Virus record (IMG/VR): IMGVR_UViG_3300025785_000018
Coordinates: 1-59,957 of that record
DNA length: 59,957 nucleotides
Strand: one strand, 5' to 3'
DNA from: a virus
Made by a program: the position numbers and the translations under genes. Of this stretch, positions 461 to 28,131 are shown one piece after another. Below the pieces are notes generated by a model that made no database searches, was not told where the DNA came from, and saw nothing but the letters and a program-made list of their open reading frames with translations. The first letter of the stretch is position 1. Each line of letters starts with the position of its first letter.

Positions 461-3400
461 TTAGTACCCGTATGTGATCTTATCTAAATCTGTCCTTGAT
501 TGGAAGTTACCAGATACGATGTTCACTATCAATGTACTGCCATCCCATGATACTATTGTACCAGCTGCAGGGTTTTGTGGACCTATGCCAGCAGAATCAA
601 CTGTGATCTCTGTGCCGACCAATGAAGCGAAGTCGATTAAGTTAGACCAGTATGTATCTGGGTATAAGTATGCTTTACCTAATGGTATCGCGCCGTTATC
701 AGAGTTATTTAATGAGTAGAATAAGTTTAATCCGCTTGGGTCATCAACAGTTGTTCCACCGATACGACCTTGTACAGACTCTCTTACCCAACTAATCGCT
801 GTGCCAGAAGATGTTGGAGTTACCTTCAATGATATCACTGAACCGTTTGTTACTGCTGTTACATCCATGACTTTCGTAGCTTTATCTGATCTTAATGTCG
901 CATACTCAGTCATGTAAACTGCAGACGCATTTTGTGTTAAGATAACTTCTGTAGCTTGTACTTTGTTTGTTGTGCTAACACCTTGTACGATATACTTAGC
1001 TGTACCAACTTCGTTAGCAGCAAACATATCTACTGTTGTTTGTGATGTGCCAGATAATCCTGTTGAACCGTTTGCTAGGCTGTAACCTTGTAGACCTGTG
1101 TAACCTTGATCACCGTCAGGACCAGTAGCACCTGAAGCACCAGTAATACCAGTAGCACCATCTAAACCGGTTTCACCTTGTATACCTTGGTCTCCGTCTA
1201 AACCTGTTTGACCTTGTTCACCAGTTACACCTGAAGCACCTTGTACACCAGTAGCACCAGTTGAACCTGTATAACCTTGTTCACCGAAAGCACCAGTTGC
1301 ACCTTTATATCCATTAATACCTGTGGCACCATCTTGACCTGTTACACCTGATGCACCTTCCATACCGACTGCACCGTCAAGGTTAACATAAAGTGTATCA
1401 ACTCCTGGAGTACTGTTACCTACTTCTGTTACGATAGTAATATTAATAGTACCAGTAATATTATCATAACTGTTTACTAAAGCTGTAGCAAAGTTCTCTG
1501 AATCTTTAGAGATGATGATAGTTTGACCAGCAGCATATGAATATGAGTAGTCAAGTGTTTGTGAATCTATTTGTATATTGATATCACCACTTACATTGAT
1601 ATTTACACCGTTATCAATGTAGTAGTCAGTGTTAAGTAATATTGCTTTGAATCTATGACCATATGAACCAGTTGCACCATCAGTACCAGTCTCACCTGTT
1701 GGACCTGATGCACCATCGATACCTTGTACACCAGTAGCACCTGTTGCACCGTCTTGACCTGTAGGACCAGTCGCTGCGTCATAACCTAAGATACCTTGTT
1801 GACCGTCTGGACCTGTTGGACCTTGTACACCTGTAGCACCTGTCTCACCAGTTTGACCTTGATCACCAGTTATACCGATTCCGCCATCGATACCAGTTGC
1901 ACCGTCTTGACCTGTTGGACCTGATGCACCATCAATGCCTTGGTTACCGTCTGGACCAGTAGCACCTGTTGCACCAGTTGAACCTGTGTAACCTATGTTA
2001 GTTGCAGCTGTATTACCTAAATATGTGTATCCACTTGGAACATCATGTTGTGGAGTAGTTATTAATTCAAACACAGCACCATCGAGTGTGCTTACTGCTG
2101 GATAACTATGCGATTGAGCTAATAAGAATGGTGAACCGTTAGTATTAGTTGCTGGATCACCGCCTTTTGACCATGCTCCACCGTTAACTCTTGCCCAAAA
2201 TACTCCTGTATTATAATTATAATTAACTGCAACTTCTACTAAATCTCCAACGCCCCAATTAATACCTAATGAATCAGTTTGGATACCATTTATCCAAACA
2301 GTACCATCTTGTTGGAATCCTTGCGATTGGTCATCATATCTTCCTAATGCATTATTAACATCAATGCCAGATGTTCCTAAGCCAATGCGATTAGTAGTAG
2401 CAGGTATATCAGCATCTAACCTTACACCAAACATACTTAAACCAGAGTTAGCGTATGTTGCCATTTCAGCAGTAGTTATTGCTGATTCAACATAACCAAC
2501 TGTACCACTTAATATTGTATTTGCGCCGTTACTGCCGCTTGAAATTGTTTGATTAGGCCCATAATGACCATAACCAGTATCAAATTGAATTGCAGCTGAT
2601 GAACCATCACCACCTTGAGCACCAGTAGCACCAGTATAACCTGTTGCACCATCTACACCTGTGTAACCTTGTTCGCCATCAGGACCTGTTGCACCATCTA
2701 AACCTGTTGAACCTTGGATACCATCAGCACCAGAAGCTCCGTCTATACCAGCTTCACCAGTTGCACCTTGAAATCCTCGTTCACCTGTAGCACCAGCAAC
2801 ACCAGTTGCACCAGTTAAACCTACTGTACCTGTAGCACCATCAGCACCAGTTGCACCTCTGGCATTATATGTACGACCTTGCAATCCTCGTTCGCCATCG
2901 ATACCTTGTGCGCCGTCTTGACCGGTAACACCAGTAGCACCAATTTGACCTACTGCTCCGTCAAGGTTGATTACCCATGCGTTATGTGAACCAGTACCTA
3001 CGTGATCTGTTTGTGTAAATGCAAGGATGTTTGTTACTGGATCGTAACTTGTAACTGTACCATGTTGATGTATACCACCACCATCGGTAAGAATAATTGT
3101 TTCACCACCACCATAACTTAATCTTTCATCTACGACTACAACTCCTGTAGCACCTGTAGATGCAAGTGTAAATGCAGTGGTTGAAGAAGTTTTGTATCTG
3201 TGACCATATGAACCAGTTGCACCAACTTCACCTGTTTGACCTGTTGCACCTATGTAACCAGCATTTCCTGTTACACCACGACGTAAGAATGTGAATCCGC
3301 TTGGAACACCGTATTCAGCAACATCATTGATAGTAAATTGTGCAGGACCATTAGAACCATAGATACCTACTGCTGGATAAACACCAGCACTAAATACAGA

Positions 3401-4570
3401 ATTATCAACTGATAAACCGCCAACACCAGTAGCTGGATCATTAGAGATATTACCATTCCAGTAACCATTGTTTACTCTGAACCATATTAAATGGTTATCA
3501 GTGTCTACAGCTATATCAATCTTGTCTCCACTAGTATAGCTATCATAATGAGTTACATATGAACCAGCATAATAGATATCACCGTTTTGCGTATAAGCTA
3601 TGGAGTTTTCATCAGGACCACCAAGCATAGCATTAAGATCAACATTACTGTTTGCGATACCAACTGAATTAGCGTTGTCACTAAAGTAATCGAAGGTAAA
3701 GCTGAACATGTAAGCATTGCCGCCGGCAATGTTTTGAGTACCTAGCGCATTATAGTAACCTTCGTTATCATCTGAAATTGTGAAGTAGTCGTCATTTGGG
3801 TAATATAACTGACTACCGATATAAGCTGGATCGAATACGTATGTGTTTGCAATGTAACCACCGAATCCACCTGTAGCACCATCAAGACCTGTTGGACCTT
3901 GATCACCTGTTACACCTTGAACACCAGTAGCACCGTCATAACCTTGTGCACCATCTTGACCAGTTACACCTTGAGAACCTGTAGCACCTTGGGCGCCTGT
4001 TGCTCCTGTAGCACCTGTCTCACCAGTTGGGCCAGTTGCACCTGCATAACCTGTATTTGTAGCAGCGCTATATCCTGTAATTGTGATTGTTGCATTTACT
4101 GGAATATCACCTAAAGTTATAGGTGTGTTTGTTAAACCTAAGAAAGATATATCACCTTGATCTACATAATTATAAACTGTGTATGTAACTGAGTTATATA
4201 CAAACGTCATTCCTGGTGCAGGAGTAGCTGATAGCGCTCTACCATCAATACGAATGTAGCTACCGTAGAGCGTTGGATATACTAACCAAGCGTTATCTAA
4301 TGCAGCTGTTACAGTTGCATCGATTGATACATATGTACCACCATTACCGCCTGTAGCACCTGTTTGACCAGTTACACCAGAAGCACCATCAATACCGGTA
4401 GCACCAGTAGATCCTGTCTCTCCTCTAACACCTGTTGCACCGTATGGTGATTCACCTGGACCAGAAGCTCCGACCCATTCACCAGCTGTGTTGATGACCT
4501 CAAATCCAGAGGCACCGACCGCTAGTCCGTTCTTGACGTTAAACTTTATATCATTGGTTGGTAGTGACAC
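461..4570 (-). CDS. Giant collagen-like fibre protein with SPRY-like modules
   Basis: 1369 residues, GTG start at 4570 preceded by aggagat. Domain order seen: conserved head (1-40, NGLAVGASG), G-X-Y repeats, a globular insert (about 75-175), G-X-Y, a SPRY/concanavalin-like domain (about 238-430: [29 protein letters not shown]), G-X-Y, a module ending AWVINLDGA (about 462-550), G-X-Y, a second SPRY-like domain (about 670-850), G-X-Y, a second NLDGA module, G-X-Y, a C-terminal domain (TAKYIVQ, TEYATL) shared with the genes at 4599 and 6935, and a unique 80-residue end. Inferred role: long adhesive virion fibre. The modular mosaic suggests recombination between paralogues. Exact virion position is unknown. 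Confidence 0.85.
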
Positions 4571-4598: not shown

Positions 4599-6875
4599 TT
4601 AAGCTAGTACTGCTTCTCTTAAGAAGTCGATTGTTGTGTTTGTATTTACTGGTGATACTTTAACGTATACTGTACCAGAGTCATAGTTTGCACTTACAGT
4701 CATTAGAGACGCTGTTGAGTACATCGTTGCATACTCTGTAACTGAAGCATCTGAACCATCATGCGTTACCAATACTTCTGTTGAGTGTACATCGCTACCA
4801 TGTGTAGCTTGGATGATATACTTAGCTGTCCTGTAAACTGTAGCATCATATGAATCGATAGTTTGGTTAGCAACTGTAGTTGTTAATGGATCGTTTCCTG
4901 CAGTTAAACCTGTACCTGTAGCACCAGTTAAACCTGTTGAACCACTTGCACCTTGGTAACCAGTAGCTCCATCTAATCCTTGAGGACCTGTTGCTCCTGT
5001 GAAACCTGAAGCACCTTGGATACCAGTTGCACCAGTATAACCTGTTGCACCAGTATAACCAGTCGCACCATCTACACCTTGAGGACCTGTTGCACCAGTG
5101 AAACCTGTAGCACCTGATGCACCTTGGAAACCAGTGGCACCTGAAGCACCATCGATACCTGTTGCACCTGTGTAACCAGTTGCACCTTGAACACCTTGTG
5201 CACCATCAAGGTTAACTGTCCATGCTGTATGTTCACCTGAACCAACTGCTGTTGTCTTGTCGAATACTAATTGGTCACCGCTGTAACTTACAACTGTACC
5301 TAATTGATAATTTGTATCATCGTAAGCAACTACGATTGATTGAGCTGGAGTATAAGCTAAACCAGAATCAACTGTTAATGTGATTTGACCAGTTCCGCCG
5401 ATAGTGAATCTTGAAGTTGATGATGTTGCATAGAGGTCACCGTTAGCACCGCTAGCACCAGCAATACCTGTTGCACCTGTGTAACCAGTTGCACCATCGA
5501 TACCTGTAGCACCTGAAGCGCCGTCAATACCAGTTGCACCAGTATAACCGGTTGCACCATCGATACCTGAAGCACCGTCAATACCTGTCGCACCTGTGTA
5601 ACCTGTAGCACCATCGATACCAGTTGCACCTGTATAACCTGTAGCACCAGTATAACCTGTCGCGCCACTTGCACCGTCGATACCTGTAGCACCTGTATAA
5701 CCTGTTGCACCATCGATACCAGTTGCGCCTGAAGCACCTTGATATCCTTGTACACCATCGTTACCTTGAGCACCTGTTGCACCACTTGCACCTACTGGAC
5801 CAGTAGCACCTGTATCACCAGTATAACCTGTAGCGCCGTCAGCACCAGTTGCACCTGAAGCTCCTTGAATACCTGTCGCACCGCTTGCACCATCAGCACC
5901 GGTTGCACCAGAAGCACCATCAATGCCTGTTGCACCGCTAGCACCTTGAAAACCAGTAGCACCTGATGCACCTTGATCTCCTTGAGAACCGGTTGCACCT
6001 GTGTAACCAGTGGCGCCTGAAGCACCTTGGAAACCTGTAGCACCTGATGCACCATCGGCACCTGTAGCACCGCTTGCACCTTGAATACCTGTTGCACCTG
6101 TATAACCTGTAGCACCTTGAACACCGACAGCACCATCAAGGTTTACTGTCCATGCTGTATATTGTGTGCCTGTTGCATGATCTGCGGTTGTGATGATTAA
6201 ATCTAATTGACCAGTACCTGAATTGTAGTTATCTACATAACCGATTACATAATCGGTAGGATTAGTTTGAGAAGCAACTAATACTGATTGTTGTGGAGTA
6301 TATGAAAGACCAGTTTCTACATTAATTGTTAATGTAACACCAAGAGCGTAGTCTGTAAGTGTTAATGGATCAGTTGAGGTTGTTGCGTATTTGTCACCGT
6401 TAAGACCGGCAGAACCTGTTGCACCTGTTTGACCAGTTGCACCTGTATAACCTGTAGCACCTGATGCACCATCGATACCAGTTGCACCAGTATAACCTGT
6501 AGCACCTGTGTAACCTGTTGCGCCGTCAATACCTGTTGCACCTGTAACACCAGTAGCACCTGTATAACCTGTAGCACCATCTATACCAGTTGCACCACTT
6601 GCACCATCAATACCAGTAGCACCTGTATAACCTGTGGCACCATCAGCACCCGTGGCACCTGATGCACCATCGATACCGGTTGCACCGGTATAACCGGTTG
6701 CACCGTCAATACCTTGGACACCTGTTGCACCTGTGTAACCTGTGGCACCTGTAGCTCCAGCAGGAAGTTCGGCTCCTATCCAATTACCGTTTTCGTCAAT
6801 GACGTCAATTATGCCTGACGCACCCCCTACGGATAGCCCGTTTCTTACTACAAAAGTTGAATTATTCGTTGCCAC
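4599..6875 (-). CDS. Collagen-like fibre protein, three-module paralogue
   Basis: 758 residues, GTG start at 6875 behind a strong aaggagatc ribosome site. Head (1-40) matches the neighbouring fibres ([21 protein letters not shown]). Long G-X-Y tracts ([10 protein letters not shown] and similar) are interrupted by two globular modules of about 75-90 residues (about 160-250 and 520-600), each starting YATSST/YATTST and ending [11 protein letters not shown]. The last 80 residues ([35 protein letters not shown]) form a C-terminal domain shared with two neighbours. It has its own late promoter upstream. Inferred: trimeric adhesive fibre on the virion. The very regular repeats open long meaningless ORFs in the other frames. 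Confidence 0.85.
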
Positions 6876-6934: not shown

Positions 6935-8539
6935 TTAGAGTCCTATCGTAGTTCTTATGTATTTTATATCAGTATAAGGACTTTGGGGCGTAAATCTTAA
7001 CTCAATATAGCCTGTCCCAGACCATTGAATACGTGATACTATTAATAAAGGTGATCTACTTTCAACAGTAGATGCTACGTATACACCTGGGCTAGTCATG
7101 ATAAACTTACTACTAAGAGTCGCTGATATAGCTCCTCCATTTAATGATATTACTGTTGTAGGTATTGCTGATAGTAATGCTTGTACTGCTGAATTTGATG
7201 TAGAGTATATAGTTAATGTTGTTCCAGTCCAGAACGACAGAGCCGAAATGTTGATATCTGGTGATGAATAGTCATTATCTACAGGTGAGTAATACGTAGC
7301 GAATGATCCTAATGATTCACCCATACCTGCATACTCTGTAAAGAATACGTTTGCTTTATCCCATAAGAGTAATAACTCTTCAGCATAGTAGTTTGTACCT
7401 TTTGTCAGCTGTACCTGATACTTTGCACTCCTATATATTGAGGTATCTAAGATGTCTATTAGCTGTTCATCTGTTGTGTTATTGGTGGTAAAGTCAATTA
7501 CGTTGTCTACACCAATACCAGATGCACCTACAGGACCTTCGATACCTGTTGCACCTGTAATACCTATAGGTCCAGTAGCACCAGTCGCTCCAGCACCCTG
7601 TGCACCTGTGGCACCGTATGGACCAGTAGCACCTGGTAAACCTACTCCAGTTGCTCCTGCAATACCGCTTGCTCCTTGTGTACCAGAAGCACCTTGAATT
7701 CCAGTAGCACCTGTTTGACCTGTGGCACCTTGTGTACCTGTCGCTCCAGTTAAACCTGTTGAACCACTTGCACCTTGAATTCCAGTAGCACCTGTTTGAC
7801 CTGTGGCACCTTGTGTACCTGTCGCTCCATCCAAACCAATAGTACCAGAAGCACCATCGATACCACTAGCTCCTTGTGGACCAGTAGCACCTGTTGCACC
7901 AGAACCTGATGCTGTTGCAGATATAGTTAATGATTGTGGGTTTGCTGAATGATCTGTTGTGATGGTGATACCAGTACCACCAATGATATGTAGTGTATCT
8001 TCTGCTACAGCTACGAGGTCTGTCTGACCGTCTACTTTGATAGTCTTGAACGCAGAACCAAGACTTACTTTAACTTCACCGCCACCAAGATCTGATACGT
8101 TGAATCCTGTATCCCTATCGAACCTTAGAGCGTTTACACCTGTTACTTCGTTAGTGATTGATCCTGTAGCACCACCAGTTGCACCACTGATGTTACTTAC
8201 CGTGATGTTTGCAACACCAACACCGCTCGCACCAGTTACACCGCTTGCACCTTGTGCACCGCTGGCTCCGATACCAGATGCACCTTGTGTACCTATTGCA
8301 CCGCTTGCACCTTGAATGCCTTGTTGACCTTGTGCACCTGATGCACCAATACCTGAAGCGCCTTGTTCTCCTTTAGGACCTGTAGCACCGCTTGCACCCT
8401 GTGGGCCTGATGCACCACCTGTATCTCCCTGTGGGCCTGTTGCACCAGTAGGACCGGTAGCACCAAAGCCAGCACCGTTACCTGATAGCCCTTGTATACC
8501 AACGGCCGCGACTTCTACGTATACGTCTCCTAATGCCAT
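6935..8539 (-). CDS. Collagen-like fibre protein with shared C-terminal domain
   Basis: 534 residues. It starts [16 protein letters not shown], a different head from the other three local fibres. G-X-Y repeats run to about residue 120. A globular insert follows (about 120-215, including [16 protein letters not shown] and a TGITITTD stretch), then more G-X-Y to about 335. The C-terminal domain ([27 protein letters not shown]) is the same fold signature as in the 758- and 1369-residue fibres, but carries about 60 extra residues between the TEYA motif and the end. Inferred virion fibre. Confidence 0.8.
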
Positions 8540-8930: not shown

Positions 8931-10307
8931 TTAAATTGGTTGTATGCTTATAATCTTCTTACCAGTCTTAGGTTCTGGTATCCCTTTTACAGCTCCGATG
9001 ATGTCTTTTCTAGACTCATCAAGGTCTCCGTCAATATAGTATGGGAGACATCCTGTTAACATCTCAAACGCAGCCATGAAGAACGGTATGTTATCAGAGT
9101 AAGCGTTATCACATGCTAGGCTCCACATATCTCCATGTAAAAACATGCATGAACCTTGACATATCTGTAATACTGGACATGTAGGACACTCTTCTCTATG
9201 ACTCCAGTGTGTACTAGTCTTTAACTTGATGTTGTCAAAGTCATTAACGTTACCGATAAGGTGACTCTCACCATTAAATCCTATAGCTACAGAGCTAACG
9301 TTTTGACATGTTAGCACGTTACCTTTTAAATCTACTGCAATATTGTGTTCATCATCCATCGTACACTTCTGACCTACAGCAACAGCTGGTCTTTTGGTTT
9401 GTATAGATGTTATGAACTCGTTGATCTTCTTCTTAGTGGCACCAACATTAGTTCCAAGTCCACTTCTTACTTCTTTAAACGTATTAGCTCGATAGTTAAG
9501 GTGATCGTGTTCATCAGTAAAACAAACGCTAGCACCACCTTCATCATATGGATCAATGAACCCACCTTCTCCGATAGGTACATCAAACCCAAGTTTATCT
9601 TTAAACCATTGACTTATGGCTGCACGGCTTTGGTTATCTTTATTCACCATAGCGTTAAAGCTCATACGATTCTTTGGTCCTAACCTATTCCATAGATCCA
9701 TGATCATCGCGAATTGTTCTGGATCATCGAATGGGTCTAACCCTCTAACATGATAACCTGGTCCATCATGTGATATACCAACACTAAACCCTAAGTTATC
9801 AAGCCATTCATTCTTTTCTAAGTCTAATATAGTACCATTAGTCACTATACCAAATGCTATGTTTGGATACATCTTCCTCATGCCTTCAGCAAGAGGCTTT
9901 AGACTCTTCCAATATACAAAGGGCTCACCACCCCAAAATTCTACTTTAACTCCAGTACCGTCTTTATTATCACCACCATCAAACCATGTTGGTAGTTGAT
10001 CTAAGAACGGACCTACATCATCCTTTGTCATCTCATCAGCTTTAGGTACAAACCTTTGACTGCAGTAGACACATTCATAATTACAAGATAAGCCTAGCTG
10101 TATCTTGAGGATCTTAATATCTTTACTCTTTTTTGCTGGAGTGTCTTTACTTGTAGTAAACACTTCTTTATAGGAACGAGTATTACCGTTACTAAAATCT
10201 ATCACGTTTCCATTTGCATCTGATATCTCAGAAGTCATGTTATCATACCAAAACTCTACATCTTCATTTGTTACAGGTCTCACACATTTTATATTAAACT
10301 TCGCCAT
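8931..10307 (-). CDS. Radical SAM enzyme with SPASM domain (anSME-like)
   Basis: 458 residues. The radical SAM CX3CX2C motif is at C75-C79-C82 (SCNYECVYC), followed by GGEP at about 126-129. The C-terminal half has a full SPASM cysteine set: KCTMDDEH, a Cys about 20 residues on (LTCQN), CPTCPVLQICQGSC (CX2CX5CX3C) and a final Cys in SLACDN, enough for two auxiliary 4Fe-4S clusters. Known SPASM enzymes modify peptides or proteins: sulfatase maturation, thioether formation, epimerisation. No sulfatase is present here. The next genes in the block are a 2OG oxygenase and three small proteins with Cys-Asn tails, which are attractive substrates (inference). Ribosome site aagga precedes the ATG. Family call is firm; substrate unknown. 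Confidence 0.9.
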   Translation of the reverse strand: MAKFNIKCVRPVTNEDVEFWYDNMTSEISDANGNVIDFSNGNTRSYKEVFTTSKDTPAKKSKDIKILKIQLGLSCNYECVYCSQRFVPKADEMTKDDVGPFLDQLPTWFDGGDNKDGTGVKVEFWGGEPFVYWKSLKPLAEGMRKMYPNIAFGIVTNGTILDLEKNEWLDNLGFSVGISHDGPGYHVRGLDPFDDPEQFAMIMDLWNRLGPKNRMSFNAMVNKDNQSRAAISQWFKDKLGFDVPIGEGGFIDPYDEGGASVCFTDEHDHLNYRANTFKEVRSGLGTNVGATKKKINEFITSIQTKRPAVAVGQKCTMDDEHNIAVDLKGNVLTCQNVSSVAIGFNGESHLIGNVNDFDNIKLKTSTHWSHREECPTCPVLQICQGSCMFLHGDMWSLACDNAYSDNIPFFMAAFEMLTGCLPYYIDGDLDESRKDIIGAVKGIPEPKTGKKIISIQPI

Positions 10308-10327
10308 TTCATGTCCTTAATTATAAA

Positions 10328-10972
10328 TTATAATGTAACGTAATTCCTTACAGATTCAACAACCTTTATGTTAGTAACTAATGCAATAGTATCAACGCTT
10401 CCTAAGTTAACTTCAGTAGTATGGAATATTGAAGAAGGATGTATAGTAAATGTTCCTAGTACAGGACTTATTGGGAATAACATCTCATGATTCAATAATC
10501 TACTTCTTGAAGAAATAGGATCGATTATGTGTAACCTATTTCCTGCAGGTTTTTGATGAGTATTATTATTTGGAAAGTCTGTGACTTCCATAGATACCCA
10601 TAAAACTGCCACGTAGTCAACGCTTCTATGATTGTGAGGCTTTGCATACTCACCAGGAGCAAACTTACGTAAGCTAGTGATAGCTTCAAACTCTACTTCT
10701 TCTGGATTAATAAAACCTTCAGCTGCAGCTAACTGAGCCATCCTAGATTTTAACATACTTTTAAATAGCTGGCATTCTGGACGAGGATCAGCTAGTAAGT
10801 TATAAGCTGCCTCTTTTGACTTACGCATATAATAAGGGACATGAGCCTCAGGATGCTGAGCTTCATATTCTTCACCAATACTAATAATATTCTTTAAAAA
10901 ATCATCAGTAGCTTCAACCGCTCTTTGTTCAATAAGAATATTGGTTGGCCATAGTTGTGCAATATTAGTCAA
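10328..10972 (-). CDS. 2OG-Fe(II) oxygenase-like protein
   Basis: 214 residues, TTG start at 10972 that overlaps the stop of the upstream gene (TTGACTAA). A double-stranded beta-helix core is visible: LRKFAPGEYAKPHNHRSVDY (H113/H115 and D119) followed by VAVLWVSMEV, then GTFTIHPSSIFHTTEV with the distal His184. This arrangement fits the phage and bacterial 2OG-Fe(II) oxygenase family with HxH/HxD...H ligands. The usual C-terminal Arg that binds 2-oxoglutarate is not obvious; Lys203 may serve. Such enzymes hydroxylate peptides or nucleic acids. Its place among collagen-like and Cys-Asn-tailed genes suggests a virion-protein substrate (inference). Confidence 0.7.
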   Translation of the reverse strand: MTNIAQLWPTNILIEQRAVEATDDFLKNIISIGEEYEAQHPEAHVPYYMRKSKEAAYNLLADPRPECQLFKSMLKSRMAQLAAAEGFINPEEVEFEAITSLRKFAPGEYAKPHNHRSVDYVAVLWVSMEVTDFPNNNTHQKPAGNRLHIIDPISSRSRLLNHEMLFPISPVLGTFTIHPSSIFHTTEVNLGSVDTIALVTNIKVVESVRNYVTL

Positions 10973-11741
10973 GTGTTACTACCTTAGTAGATACGCCAGT
11001 CCAGTATTTGTATCCAGTTTTAATTGTTACTACTTCACCAGCATTTAATCCAGTAGTGTCTAAGTTAAATGTACCACCATTCGTTACACGTGATCTATTA
11101 ATTACACCAATATCAGATGAAAGATAAACCGTAGTGTTTGCTGGAGCCGTCACTGTATATGCATGTGTATCACCAGCTTTAATAGTACTTGGTCCATTAA
11201 CTATGATAGGTAACCATGATTCTAAGAATGCATGCATCGATACTATAGATGTAGATGAAGGAGCTGATCCGTTAACTGTGATGTTTGCACCATCTCTAAA
11301 TATGATAGTTAGTTCGCTGGTAGGACAATCCTTATATGGTGTTAAGATATACAAGTAACCATATGAAGAGTATCTACTGTTGATAACTGACCATGGTGAA
11401 CCTGGATATGTTTTACCTTCTGCCGCTGGTGTCACATCAGTTTTTTGATAGATCATACCTGGATCACCTCCGCCCTTTTCACTTAATGAAAGTTGTGTAG
11501 TCTCCATAGCCATGAATTCTTGAGTATCTGGGATATGCATTGCTTTTGGAAACAACGCGATACATCCATGATCCTGAGAATATTTTTGTACTAGTTCTGC
11601 TAGATTGAATGTACCAACAGCATTGGTTGTTCCAATTGCAGTAACAGTAGTATCAGAAATCTCCAATGTCAAGATATCATTTTTGATAGTGACATCGTTT
11701 TTTGATAACGTTCTTGTTGTACTTAGTGAGTAAAAATTCAT
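10965..11741 (-). CDS. Hypothetical protein, Ig-like C-terminal domain
   Basis: 258 residues, not recognised. The N-terminal 180 residues include HGCIALFPKAMHIPDTQEFM, a GGGDPGMIYQKT stretch and aromatic-rich YGYLYILTPY. The last 80 residues look like an Ig-like or invasin-like beta domain (AGDTHAYTVTAPANTTVYLS, GLNAGEVVTIKT). It is translationally coupled to the 2OG oxygenase (8-base overlap) and follows the three Cys-Asn-tailed genes by 24 bases, so it belongs to the same transcription unit. It may be a scaffold, a substrate or a fibre component; no function is claimed. Confidence 0.65.
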   Translation of the reverse strand: MNFYSLSTTRTLSKNDVTIKNDILTLEISDTTVTAIGTTNAVGTFNLAELVQKYSQDHGCIALFPKAMHIPDTQEFMAMETTQLSLSEKGGGDPGMIYQKTDVTPAAEGKTYPGSPWSVINSRYSSYGYLYILTPYKDCPTSELTIIFRDGANITVNGSAPSSTSIVSMHAFLESWLPIIVNGPSTIKAGDTHAYTVTAPANTTVYLSSDIGVINRSRVTNGGTFNLDTTGLNAGEVVTIKTGYKYWTGVSTKVVTLD

Positions 11742-11765
11742 TGTTTTTTCCTTTTTATCTATTTA

Positions 11766-12131
11766 TTAGCAATTACATGCACAGTTACAGTTATAGTTTT
11801 GTAAAGTTAAAGCTCCGGAAGCACCAGTAGCACCGTTCCAATATAATCCCCAAACTCCACTTGTAAGGTGACCTACTCCTCCTCTTCCGCTACCGCATGC
11901 GCTAATAACACCACTGTTAAGGTTATCACCGCTTATGAGGTTTCCAGCTGATAAGAATGGTCCATAGTTACCAAGATCATTAGTAAACTGACTTAGTGCT
12001 GTTGGTCTTCCAACTATACCTGTGGCTCCTGTAGCGCCTGATGCACCTACAGTGCCCCATACAAATGATGCTGTACTTAAAGTAGTACCATCACCAAATT
12101 TTATATCACCATTTTCTAATATCGTTGCCAT
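11766..12131 (-). CDS. Small fibre-like protein with NCNCACNC tail
   Basis: 121 residues. N-terminal signature ENGDIKFGDGTTLSTASF, then LSQFTNDLGNYGPF, both shared with the next two genes. A few collagen-like triplets occur ([10 protein letters not shown]). The C-terminus is YNCNCACNC, alternating Cys with Asn/Ala. Only one other Cys (SACGSG) is seen. It is preceded by aggataata. The alternating Cys tail could bind metal, form disulfides, or be a substrate for the nearby radical SAM/SPASM enzyme (inference). Confidence 0.8.
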   Translation of the reverse strand: MATILENGDIKFGDGTTLSTASFVWGTVGASGATGATGIVGRPTALSQFTNDLGNYGPFLSAGNLISGDNLNSGVISACGSGRGGVGHLTSGVWGLYWNGATGASGALTLQNYNCNCACNC

Positions 12132-12140
12132 TTATTATCC

Positions 12141-12644
12141 TTAGCAGTTACAGTTGCAATTACAATTATTAGCATTGATTGACAAAGTTGTACCATTCCA
12201 GTTTAAGTGTCTTGGACCATATTCATTATATGCATAGTAACCTGATAATGTCATCTGATAAAGTTTTGTACTAGCTAAATTTTGTGAAACGCTGACCACA
12301 TATACTCCAGTACCTCCTGTAGCGCCTGAAGTCTGTGATACAAAATATGTACCGTTTGCAACACCAACACCGTTTAATGCATTAGGACCAAGATTATTGC
12401 CGATAGCTATGCTACCAGATATGATACTTGTTACAGTTAGATTGGTTCCTGATATACTTCCAATAAAAACTGCAGCATGACTTAAATTATCAATTGTAAT
12501 AAATGGATAGTAGTTGCCAAGATTATTAGTAAACTGACTAAGATTAGTAGGAGCACTAGTTAATTGTGATTGTGTAACATTTGCAGAAGATAGTGTGGTG
12601 TTATCTCCAAAAACTAATGATCCATTTGTTATTTTTGTTGACAT
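12141..12644 (-). CDS. Small fibre-like protein with NCNCNCNC tail
   Basis: 167 residues. Shares the N-terminal signature with its two neighbours (ITNGSLVFGDNTTLSSANV, then LSQFTNNLGNYYPF). An inserted beta-rich stretch (AVFIGSISGTNLTVTSIISG, FVSQTSGATGGTGVYVVSVS) makes it the longest of the three. The C-terminus is ANNCNCNCNC; there are no other cysteines, so the Cys are confined to the tail. Nine-base gap to the next gene; same operon as the radical SAM and 2OG genes. Confidence 0.8.
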   Translation of the reverse strand: MSTKITNGSLVFGDNTTLSSANVTQSQLTSAPTNLSQFTNNLGNYYPFITIDNLSHAAVFIGSISGTNLTVTSIISGSIAIGNNLGPNALNGVGVANGTYFVSQTSGATGGTGVYVVSVSQNLASTKLYQMTLSGYYAYNEYGPRHLNWNGTTLSINANNCNCNCNC

Positions 12645-12652
12645 CTATTATC

Positions 12653-12937
12653 CTAACAATTACAGTTACAGTTACAGTTGCAATTACCATCAGTTATCAA
12701 TGTTAAATTGCCCGCACTGTTTACTCCAACACCTATATTAGCAAAAGCACCAGTACTGTACGCGGTAGTATCTACACCTGTGACAGGGAAAAAACCACCA
12801 TAGTTACCCAAGTCATTAGTAAATTGACTAAGGTTTGTTTTTTTGTTTGTTATATTTGCATATGGTAAATTAGCGCTACTTAGTGATGTGTTATCACCAA
12901 ATGTTATATTACCATTACCTATCTTAGTTGTTGCCAT
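12653..12937 (-). CDS. Small fibre-like protein with NCNCNCNCNC tail
   Basis: 94 residues, first of the three Cys-Asn-tailed paralogues in transcription order. N-terminal signature IGNGNITFGDNTSLSSANL and LSQFTNDLGNYGGFF. The C-terminus is DGNCNCNCNCNC, five Cys alternating with Asn and no Cys elsewhere. Eight-base gaps on both sides. The three proteins share head and tail but differ in the middle, which looks like a common attachment head and a common modifiable tail carrying variable bodies (inference). Confidence 0.8.
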   Translation of the reverse strand: MATTKIGNGNITFGDNTSLSSANLPYANITNKKTNLSQFTNDLGNYGGFFPVTGVDTTAYSTGAFANIGVGVNSAGNLTLITDGNCNCNCNCNC

Positions 12938-12945
12938 CTTTTATC

Positions 12946-13857
12946 CTAGTTACCTTTTAAAGAGTTAACTTCTGCTCTTAATTCTTTGATAGCTTCGATC
13001 AACAGTGGTACTAATCTTTCATATCGTACGGTTAAGTACTGTGTATCTACTGGAGCGTCTGTAACGATCTCTGGTAGTACTGCTTGAACTTCTTGTGCAG
13101 ATACGCCAACTTCCCTCTTAACAGCAAAACCTAAAGCTTGAGCTGATTCATTAGCTTCATAGTAGAAGCCAGATAAAGCATCAACCTTATCAAGTGCATT
13201 TTCTATACCACCTAACTTTGTCTTTAATCTTTCGTCTGAGTAGTATGATGTGATTTGGTTTGTAGCACGGATCTCACCGACAGTACCAGATGCAGTTGTA
13301 CCAACACCAAGGCTGCTATATTGTATATTTGATGAACTACCAGGAATATCAAACCCTGTAGCTCCAGTAACTCTACCTGCGGTATCAACTGTAATTCCTG
13401 GGATAACTGTAGCAGAACCGTATGTTGCAGCAGAAATACCAGTCGTAGTAAGCTTAGAACTTGGGATACTTCCAGCTAACATGGTAGCTGTCACTGTACC
13501 AGTATCTGTAGTATACACACCGTTTGTAACTGTACCAGCATTACCTGATACACTACCTGTGACGTTACCTGTTAAGTTTGCTGTGATGACGTTTGCAGCA
13601 AAGTTACCAGATCCATCCCTCTGTACGATCGTGTTTACTGTACTAGTAGTGGCGGGTAAGTAACCATGAAGCTTATCAGCGTCAAGCCCTGAACCAGAAC
13701 CATCTACTGTTTCTAATTTAGTTAATATATCAGATGCTGTATAAGCTGATGCGAGCAACCTTGTACCAATATCTGTACTCAGATTGGTAAAGTTAGTATC
13801 CATCTCAGTGTTTGTTAAAGGTGCACCTTTTACTGATCTAAGCGTTAGTGTTGTCAT
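12946..13857 (-). CDS. Fibre protein with self-cleaving S74 chaperone domain
   Basis: 303 residues. The head LRSVKGAPLTNTEMDTNFTNL is a common phage short-fibre N-terminal signature. The middle is beta-rich fibre sequence (ANVITANLTGNVTGSVSG). The C-terminal 100 residues are a peptidase S74 intramolecular chaperone: YYSDERLKTKL with the expected Ser207/Lys212 pair, then GVSAQEVQAVLPE and a coiled-coil end (LIEAIKELRAEVNSLK). In this family the chaperone trimerises the fibre and cuts itself off. It heads the operon of Cys-Asn-tailed proteins. Confidence 0.85.
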   Translation of the reverse strand: MTTLTLRSVKGAPLTNTEMDTNFTNLSTDIGTRLLASAYTASDILTKLETVDGSGSGLDADKLHGYLPATTSTVNTIVQRDGSGNFAANVITANLTGNVTGSVSGNAGTVTNGVYTTDTGTVTATMLAGSIPSSKLTTTGISAATYGSATVIPGITVDTAGRVTGATGFDIPGSSSNIQYSSLGVGTTASGTVGEIRATNQITSYYSDERLKTKLGGIENALDKVDALSGFYYEANESAQALGFAVKREVGVSAQEVQAVLPEIVTDAPVDTQYLTVRYERLVPLLIEAIKELRAEVNSLKGN

Positions 13858-26512: not shown

Positions 26513-26797
26513 CTATCCAAAGAATACGTTTTGTGAGCCTTGTGCTACTACAGACCCACAATCTATCGGGTCACCTATACGCATAGCAGCTCTTCCATTA
26601 ATGAATACTTTACTTGATCCTTCTTGTCCTCTCCCATCATGACATATGATGGTACAACAATGTGTTTCCCATAGATCACCTACACGTGCAATACCTACAC
26701 CGTTTGCAAACACGTTGCTAGATCCTTCCATCACAGTACGTGGTGGGAAACAACCATGTCCTGAACAAACATCACCAATCCTAGTTCCAGCTGCCAT
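26513..26797 (-). CDS. PAAR-motif spike tip protein
   Basis: 94 residues. Two PAAR-type repeats: GTRIGDVCSGHGCFPPRTVM and NVFANGVGIARVGD, then SSKVFINGRAAMRIGD and NVFFG. Cys/His residues (C10, H13, C15, H47, C48, H53) can bind the tip metal ion. PAAR proteins cap the gp5 spike (T4 gp5.4). Its ATG overlaps the stop of the upstream collagen-like gene by one base. Confidence 0.9.
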   Translation of the reverse strand: MAAGTRIGDVCSGHGCFPPRTVMEGSSNVFANGVGIARVGDLWETHCCTIICHDGRGQEGSSKVFINGRAAMRIGDPIDCGSVVAQGSQNVFFG

Positions 26798-28131
26798 TAT
26801 GCAATAGTACCATAAGAAGTAACACTTTGTACAGTAGTGAGGTTACCGTTTGAATCAAGCATAGCTACATGTACACCAGTAGTTCCAGTTAAGTACATGA
26901 ATATTAGTTGTCCACTTGCACCTTGTAATACAGTCCAATTTGTTGTTCCGAATCCTGGTCCTGTTGGTCCTGATGCACCACCCGTTGGACCTTGAATACC
27001 TGTAGCTCCTGTTAAACCCGATGCACCTTGAGTTCCTGTAGCACCTGTAGCACCTGTTTTACCTGTGGATCCGCTTGCACCTGATGCACCACCAGTTGGA
27101 CCTTGAATACCTGTTGCACCAGGCAAACCTGTAGATCCACTCGAACCTTGAGTTCCTGTAGCACCGCTTGCACCTATTGGTCCTGTTGAACCAGTAGCTC
27201 CTCTACCAGTCGCACCTATTGGTCCTGTTGCACCTGGAATGTTTGATACACCCGCTGGACCTGTAGATCCTGTCGGACCAGTAGCACCTGATGCACCGCT
27301 TGCACCCTGTGGACCTGATGCACCACCTGTATCTCCTTGCGGGCCTGTTGCTCCTGTATAACCTGTCGCTCCTGTCGCACCAGTATAACCTGTTGCACCT
27401 GTCGAACCAACAGGTCCTGATGCACCACCAGTTGGACCTTGAATACCTGTTGCGCCAGGCAAACCTGTCGCTCCACTTGCACCAGTAACACCTGTTGCAC
27501 CTGTATATCCTGTAGCACCGCTTGCACCTTGATAACCTGTAGCACCTGTAGCACCAACACCGCTTGCACCTTGTGGACCTGTAGATCCTGTTGAACCTGG
27601 TAACCCTGCACCTGTAGCGCCAACACCGCTTGCACCTTGTGGACCCGTAGATCCTGTAGCGCCCGTTAATCCTGCACCTGTCGCACCTGTCGAACCTGTT
27701 AAGCCCGTCGATCCGCTCGAACCTTGGATACCTGTGGCACCTGTCGAACCTGTTAAACCTGTTGAACCACTCGCACCTTGATAACCCGTCGCTCCTGTAG
27801 TTCCAGTATAACCTGTGGCACCTTGTGGACCAGTTGCACCTTGTGGACCTGTAACGTTACCTACGTCAACCCATGATGCACCTTGCCAAACCCATAAGTG
27901 ACCAGTATTAGTCGTGATGTATCCATCACCTATTGTATTTCCAGTGAGTGGTAGTAATGATGAGTTAGCAACAGAACCTTTAATCGTTACTGATTGACCG
28001 ATAGGACCTTGTGCACCTGTTGCACCTGGAGTTCCTGTAGCTCCTGTGTATCCTGTGGCTCCAGTAGAACCTGTAGAACCTATCGGTCCTTGTATCGTTC
28101 CTGAAGCTAGTTGTTGTAGAGTTATCGTCAT
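26797..28131 (-). CDS. Collagen-like fibre protein
   Basis: 444 residues. Short head ([16 protein letters not shown]), an early globular segment (about 45-95: [34 protein letters not shown]) that matches the small domain often inserted in phage collagen-like tail proteins, then about 280 residues of G-X-Y triplets, and a short C-terminal end ([20 protein letters not shown]). Some triplet blocks ([11 protein letters not shown]) recur. Inferred tail-fibre component; the gene lies between the Gly-rich fibre and the PAAR tip. Confidence 0.8.

Follow-up and report, generated by a model that had tools for sequence, protein, structure and literature searches.

The virus record IMGVR_UViG_3300025785_000018 of IMG/VR, analysed here over positions 1 to 59,957 (the window, 59,957 nucleotides), raises the question of what a radical S-adenosylmethionine (SAM) enzyme with a SPASM domain acts upon when it is encoded downstream of three small proteins ending in alternating asparagine and cysteine (Asn-Cys or NC tails). 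A preliminary description of this DNA had proposed a phage SPASM system that modifies Cys-Asn tails of virion proteins. It is very probable that the NC tail is the substrate of the enzyme, because the two co-occur in both directions of searching, with controls. The fuller reading, a phage fibre-tip maturation cassette in which the radical SAM/SPASM enzyme modifies the Asn-Cys tips of virion fibres, is the one we favour, with rather less assurance.

The three proteins are consecutive paralogues sharing a common head (FGD[NG]T.LS.A ... LSQFTN[DN]LGNY). As originally noted, their cysteines lie almost entirely within the tails, which hold 13 of 14 (all five in paralogue 1, all four in paralogue 2 and four of five in paralogue 3). 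A degenerate DNA pattern for NCNCNCNC followed by a stop codon was searched in IMG/VR and returned 44 contigs, in all of which an open reading frame (ORF) ending in such a tail was confirmed. Relatives of the window enzyme are encoded in 41 of these contigs (37 in the local DNA and four more in the full record), although the 44 are partly redundant, with a near-identical protein of 133 amino acids (aa) in six (loci L005, L007, L012, L015, L016 and L040). A residue-neutral pattern, CxCxCxCxCxC before a stop codon, gave at least 118 new loci. Ten of them have tails in which at least four of the six x residues are N, D, A or Q, and the enzyme is found at eight of the ten (six in local DNA, two more in the full record). 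At the other 108 residue-neutral loci among the matches listed, a control of 980,186 bases (0.98 Mb), the enzyme was not found once. Cys-Asn tails regularly occurring apart from a radical SAM enzyme, which the preliminary description had named as the observation that would count against its proposal, were thus not seen.

The reverse search used an alignment of the enzyme and yielded 79 further viral loci (from the best 80 of at least 166 confirmed) and 79 loci in bacterial genome records (from the best 80 of 98), which include Limnohabitans, Comamonadaceae, genera of Rhodobacteraceae, Rhodospirillaceae and Magnetospirillum. After shorter ORFs were dropped, 214 enzyme proteins of at least 330 aa formed 139 clusters at 90% identity. 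Of the 121 clusters that the enzyme search contributed, 99 encode a protein with alternating Cys no more than 8 kilobases (kb) away on the same strand, a proportion biased by an alignment built mainly from tail-adjacent enzymes, so that more distant members may differ. The partner is upstream of the enzyme in 90 of the 99 clusters; the median distance is 1,357 bases, and 95 partners lie within 3 kb. Eleven clusters without a partner have less than 3 kb of upstream sequence and 11 more have longer upstream sequence, four of the latter carrying other Cys-rich stretches (internal NCNC/DCNC in L118 and L126, an NCDCHC ending in L200, and Cys with periods of three and five in L212). The Cys-tailed protein is the most widely common neighbour of the enzyme.

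A base rate was estimated from 399 genomes of one bacterial family, some of which may overlap with the bacterial records of the enzyme search. At a threshold of E ≤ 1e-60 the enzyme is encoded in seven of the 399. The DNA pattern NCNCNCxC occurs in 19, and five of these occurrences were judged to be genuine tails; all five lie in genomes with the enzyme, 1.4-3.1 kb from it (within 3.2 kb). A sixth enzyme-encoding genome has a variant tail, NCDCNCNCNCCGC, about 3.1 kb away. The remaining 14 pattern-carrying genomes, judged by eye, appear to hold repeat DNA in arbitrary frames and lack such an enzyme; in three of them (G024, G084 and G027) the frame, 25-78 aa long, stops shortly after the motif, and if these are counted as tails the enzyme accompanies five of eight. 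One genome (G016) was the chosen centre of the sample, and leaving it out gives four of four tails and the enzyme in six of 398 genomes; G016 also carries a second copy of the enzyme (L152), at which no tail was found. Within 25 kb around the tail genes of Xylophilus phage Lumi, which a part of PMC9959647 describes as related to Achromobacter phage JWF, no NC run and no copy of the enzyme was found. That tail and enzyme meet by accident, through shared descent or because the phages abound in radical SAM genes, is very improbable. Redundancy among the 44 contigs would allow for this, as would the T4-like marine phage genome with 12 radical SAM genes mentioned in an excerpt of PMC5332604; against it, tails are found in most of the 139 clusters, on several fibre scaffolds and in many host records, while the enzyme is absent from the 108 control loci and rare in the 399 genomes, where it is nevertheless encoded in every genome with a genuine tail.

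The composition of the tails argues for the Asn-Cys dipeptide as the unit of the tag. A set of 118 unique C-terminal tails, from which tail proteins below 70 aa and those with less than two NC per run had been dropped, contains 554 units; Cys is preceded by Asn in 438 of them, by Ala in 46, by Asp in 30, by Arg in 12 and by another residue in 28. Asn is the first of these preceding residues in 108 tails and the second in 112. Asn is encoded by 257 AAC and 181 AAT codons, and Cys by 301 TGC and 253 TGT codons, and the window's own tails likewise mix codons, so that selection appears to act on the protein and the NC tail is not a DNA repeat. The Asn-Ser counterpart pattern (AGY codons) had no match in the same IMG/VR viral collection, and with the mixed codons this rules out chance or repeat DNA as the source of the tails. 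When proteins with more than 15% Cys are excluded, Asn precedes 244 of 339 isolated Cys near a Cys run. When each 50%-identity cluster is represented by a single protein, it precedes 90 of 121, compared with 138 of 2,801 in 942 neighbouring proteins, and it stands at position -3 in 16 of the 121. Since Asn directly precedes most isolated Cys and is rarely at -3, the unit looks like an Asn-Cys dipeptide, and the N-x-x-C spacing of the peptide NxxcA was rejected as a conserved unit.

Several observations weigh against an enzyme devoted to Asn-Cys tips. Three of the 44 contigs with NCNCNCNC before a stop (L022, L026 and L029, in records of 9.4, 23.7 and 7.7 kb) and two of the ten loci with N/D/A/Q-rich tails (L291 and L310, records of 27.1 and 10.4 kb) do not encode the enzyme. 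Conversely, seven clusters have no Cys-rich partner despite at least 3 kb of upstream sequence (L121, L070, L152, L098, which has one isolated NCDC, L208, L184 and L195), and the seventh enzyme-encoding genome of the bacterial family (G117) has no tail in 18 kb. A residue other than Asn precedes Cys in 116 of the 554 units, and Asn therefore cannot be the acceptor everywhere; the spacing by which NxxcA offers a precedent is also not a conserved feature of the tags. Finally, membership of the tagged proteins in the virion is assigned through fibre homology, and modification of the tail is predicted from sequence and structural models.

Proteins of fibre type, 81-686 aa long, carry the tag at their C-terminus or close to it. 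Their 168 distinct heads fall into nine single-linkage groups, the largest with 128 members, and the tag therefore sits on several scaffolds. In ten clusters it is carried by three small paralogues, and those of the window perhaps form a heterotrimer. By simple text rules, the tag is C-terminal in 68 of the 99 clusters with a partner, precedes a Hint domain in nine and is placed otherwise in 22. In Achromobacter phages JWF and 2-1, as in some prophage-like loci, it is non-terminal and directly adjoins the Hint domain (NCNCDCNCNCSC-FPAGT in JWF). The Hint domain of JWF gp028 scores 47.5 bits against PF05203 (cut-off 32.1) over residues 308-344, and all five further Hint candidates scored against PF05203 fall below the cut-off. 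Self-cleavage at Hint would leave the tag terminal. A similar Hint domain without the tag is found in Providencia phage PSTNGR1 (L348 3551-4504), so tag and Hint are separable modules.

Some variants of the tag were seen in passing. In a different tagged protein, the NC-rich stretch lies in mid-protein and is followed by a common domain starting SKII/VC.KL; this was seen in six loci (L106 11380-12261, L116 11418-12302, L118, L126, L134 and L136). Tails reading NCNCNCRC or NCNCACRC are found in nine loci of Rhodobacteraceae type (L190, L191, L192, L193, L194, L196, L198, L201 and L206), in all of which the tail lies an identical 635 bases from the enzyme, as if a conserved element had been retained. 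A Parasutterella muris record (L212 6665-8061) encodes three consecutive paralogues with Cys repeats of period three (HCSYCSYCTYCSQC) and period five (NCTTVNCTTV), followed by a protein of 292 aa and a pair of SPASM-type radical SAM genes, which resembles the plan of the window with other Cys spacing.

The enzyme has the features of a complete radical SAM/SPASM protein. The CX3CX2C motif (C75/C79/C82) is kept in 61 of 61 relatives (PF04055, 31.2 bits, cut-off 29.5). The full SPASM set CX2CX5CX3C claimed in the preliminary description is borne out as C374/C377/C383/C387, to which C315, G329, C334 and C399 are added, and this seven-Cys pattern is found in 60-61 of 61 relatives (TIGR04085, 33.9 bits, cut-off 27). 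All ten Cys that such an enzyme would need for its radical SAM cluster and its two auxiliary clusters are retained, and no further Cys is nearly invariant. The AlphaFold2 model (predicted local distance difference test score, pLDDT, 94.5; predicted template modelling score 0.92) has as its top structural matches CteB (Z 23.2), ChlB (21.0), the anaerobic sulfatase-maturating enzyme anSME (20.1) and TigE (19.2). In anSME an extra Cys serves cluster I; alignment shows no counterpart of it in the window enzyme or in 61 relatives. According to section 8 of PMC8326336, auxiliary cluster I of CteB is ligated by three Cys, which leaves one iron open. Because the extra Cys has no equivalent, the window enzyme probably has the same arrangement, which would favour sulphur chemistry on a Cys substrate. 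Before residue 83 the model has only strands in place of the winged-helix RiPP recognition element (RRE) that binds leaders of ribosomally synthesised and post-translationally modified peptides (RiPPs), a separate RRE protein not having been searched for, and the lack of this domain suits a protein substrate. A PADLOC match (E 4.8e-12) to prokaryotic viperin (pVip), whose substrate is a nucleotide, covers the radical SAM core only (residues 73-182; NF038283 at 41.7 of 180 bits). The family phrog_1802, to which the enzyme belongs, is listed as "other" without a function, and the enzymes of JWF (gp030) and phage 2-1 are 44.0 and 43.5% identical to that of the window. One contig with tag and enzyme (L002 9024-10655) encodes, on the opposite strand, a second protein with a radical SAM-type motif (543 aa).

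On the analogy of CteB, we lean towards a C-S bond as the product. That the Asn adjoining Cys serves as acceptor is a more tentative suggestion, which we hold less likely than not. Thioether precedents include the Cys-Asn link of NxxcA and the Cys-Asp beta-carbon links of freyrasin (both in part of PMC8326336), and an excerpt of PMC9413430 reports that PapB accepts Cys-Xn-Asp with n of 0-6. The series of events would begin with fibre-type proteins that carry the tag, whose units would be modified post-translationally by the dedicated enzyme encoded about 1.5 kb downstream. The C-terminus at which the tag is observed would be expected to form the tip of a trimeric fibre, and where a Hint domain directly follows, its self-cleavage would expose the tag. 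Residue statistics suggest that the enzyme recognises Asn-Cys dipeptides. The 5'-deoxyadenosyl radical would abstract a hydrogen from the tag, a thiolate of which could bind the iron left open in auxiliary cluster I, and the resulting thioether (sulphur-to-carbon) bond, to which the SPASM ligand pattern and the likeness to CteB point, would give a stapled, reduction-proof tip. Speculatively, such a tip might stabilise the fibre end or join the host-binding surface. It is possible, if doubtful, that these loci represent a widespread and undescribed class of virion maturation, in which the enzyme cross-links within each Asn-Cys dipeptide, tips are sometimes heterotrimeric and sometimes unmasked by Hint, and the modified tip touches the host. 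We know of no protein precedent for a small S-C ring inside an Asn-Cys dipeptide.

The same tail could instead receive other chemistry: conversion of Cys to formylglycine or a thioaldehyde, Asn epimerisation giving alternating D and L residues, C-C or cyclophane bonds, or splicing of the dipeptide backbone. We regard this as unlikely, though not negligibly so. anSME is a near structural relative, and one record annotates the JWF enzyme as an anaerobic sulfatase-maturating enzyme; the extra cluster-I Cys is absent, however, and the position of Asp277, which follows the next Cys in anSME and is the base proposed there, aligns with Gln, as in 57 of 61 relatives. Asn directly before Cys would fit a dipeptide-specific reaction, and the strict alternation is reminiscent of polytheonamide-type (proteusin-like) epimerisation. 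Radical SAM epimerases probably require a free hydrogen-donor Cys, but no nearly invariant Cys is present beyond the ten cluster candidates. The NCBIfam cut-offs of those families are also not reached.

A further alternative leaves the tails unmodified, as metal-binding or disulphide-bonded structures, with the enzyme acting on the immunoglobulin (Ig)-like protein encoded beside them, on collagen-like proteins or on a small molecule. We consider it improbable. A trimer tip with regular Cys-x-Cys runs could offer a site for iron or zinc, and it is by inference that the tail is modified at all. Disulphides or metal alone, however, leave unexplained the Asn before isolated Cys and the joint absence of tail and enzyme in Lumi, and other neighbouring families are less constant than the Cys tail: at 140 loci (the 139 cluster representatives plus the window), relatives of the Ig-like protein are found at 83 and the oxygenase family at 72. 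For the collagen-like proteins, which the preliminary description had named as an alternative target, no support was found; those of the window, with long G-x-y repeats (461-4570, 4599-6875, 6935-8539 and 26797-28131), showed no special link to the enzyme.

The Ig-like and oxygenase families are each missing from some loci. The minimal system consists of the tag and the radical SAM enzyme. The 2-oxoglutarate (2OG)-Fe(II) oxygenase that had originally been counted in the system is present in the block and is a frequent partner, but it is optional, and its role as an obligate partner was rejected on the count of loci; the part of the proposal that concerned the SPASM enzyme and the tails is strongly supported by the two-way co-occurrence. 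Some lineages, such as L084, L108 and JWF, have no oxygenase between tail and enzyme. The window protein scores 24 bits against PF13759, below the cut-off of 27; its relatives in L116 and L132 score above the cut-off and that in L050 at it, and the metal-binding His pair, H113 and H184, is conserved in all 79 relatives aligned. The 258-aa protein, which the preliminary description does not mention, is modelled with a pLDDT of 83.2. Over residues 177-258 its structure is matched by intimin (Z 10.1) and the phage Chi neck protein (Z 9.3), with generic Ig folds in Foldseek. It is a probable virion adaptor. JWF gp029 was rejected as its homologue (hhalign probability 0.2%), and the middle gene therefore differs between lineages.

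Known targets of radical SAM/SPASM maturation are natural-product peptides and a small number of enzyme subunits. The maturases CteB and PapB (of SCIFF and freyrasin; ranthipeptide synthases) share with the window enzyme the combination of radical SAM and SPASM domains and a Cys-rich substrate, CteB being the best structural match and the model for the iron that is probably left open in auxiliary cluster I. Unlike these, which act on short peptides, the enzyme studied here has fibre-type substrates and no N-terminal winged-helix RRE in its model, and it scores far below the NCBIfam cut-offs (56.7 of 340 for PapB and 35.5 of 425 for SCIFF, with 25 of 46 families listed). NxxcB, which makes the beta-thioether RiPP NxxcA, also joins Cys to Asn (PMC8326336, in section 7), but through one N-x-x-C link in a short peptide, whereas here Asn directly precedes Cys. 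QhpD, the maturase of quinohemoprotein amine dehydrogenase, also belongs to the SPASM enzymes and installs Cys-Asp/Glu thioethers in a protein subunit (part of PMC8326336). Its substrate is a dehydrogenase subunit and not a phage fibre, and the window enzyme has a partial match to TIGR03906 at 35.4 bits (cut-off 453). anSME shares the fold and most SPASM cysteines, but its extra cluster-I Cys and the following Asp are not kept (TIGR03942, 41.8 of 349 bits). Phages JWF and 2-1 have the same enzyme family and a tagged fibre just upstream, differing in that their tag precedes Hint whereas that of the window ends the protein. The tagged proteins also differ from RiPP precursors in being fibre-type, with no leader-core layout. 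The system may function much as a ranthipeptide or QhpD-type maturase does, yet it does not show features by which assignment to those families was checked.

Searches of the open-access literature turned up no report of NC tails, nor of phage fibres as targets of a radical SAM enzyme. If the proposal is correct, a dedicated fibre-tip maturase would add a chemical layer to phage host binding, phrog_1802 would gain a function, and a compact NCNC tag with its own modifying enzyme would be available for protein engineering.

The genes of the window lie in a minus-strand block (8931-13857) surrounded by baseplate, tail and collagen-like fibre genes, and are listed in order of transcription below, followed by the tag-Hint proteins of the two Achromobacter phages.

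Coordinates of the tag-enzyme block of the window and of tagged Hint proteins
Feature	Location	Strand	Supporting detail
S74-chaperone tail-fibre protein, first gene of the block, without NC tail	12946-13857	-	PF13884 45.6 bits, cut-off 22
NC-tail paralogue 1, 94 aa, C-terminus GNCNCNCNCNC	12653-12937	-	(NC)5 encoded at 12656-12685
NC-tail paralogue 2, 167 aa, C-terminus NNCNCNCNC	12141-12644	-	(NC)4 encoded at 12144-12167
NC-tail paralogue 3, 121 aa, C-terminus YNCNCACNC	11766-12131	-	NCNCACNC encoded at 11769-11792
258-aa protein, C-terminal Ig-like domain	10965-11741	-	relatives at 83/140 loci
2OG-Fe(II) oxygenase relative	10328-10972	-	phrog_81 E 1.5e-12
Radical SAM/SPASM enzyme, proposed NC-tail modifier	8931-10307	-	PF04055, TIGR04085, phrog_1802 E 2.3e-68
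Tag + Hint, Achromobacter phage JWF	L046 9796-11247
Tag + Hint, Achromobacter phage 2-1	L349 4501-5943

The S74 protein also matches many PHROG tail-fibre families, and the middle part of paralogue 2 resembles the tail fiber protein family phrog_38233 (E 1.1e-9). A tblastn search of phage records with the 94-aa tail protein gave short Polaribacter matches and nothing else, and searches with two fibre proteins gave fragments only, save for one match of 27% identity to phage 2-1. An enzyme identical to that of the window is encoded in contigs of 28.8, 127.6 and 160.1 kb, and the window is therefore probably part of a larger tailed phage.

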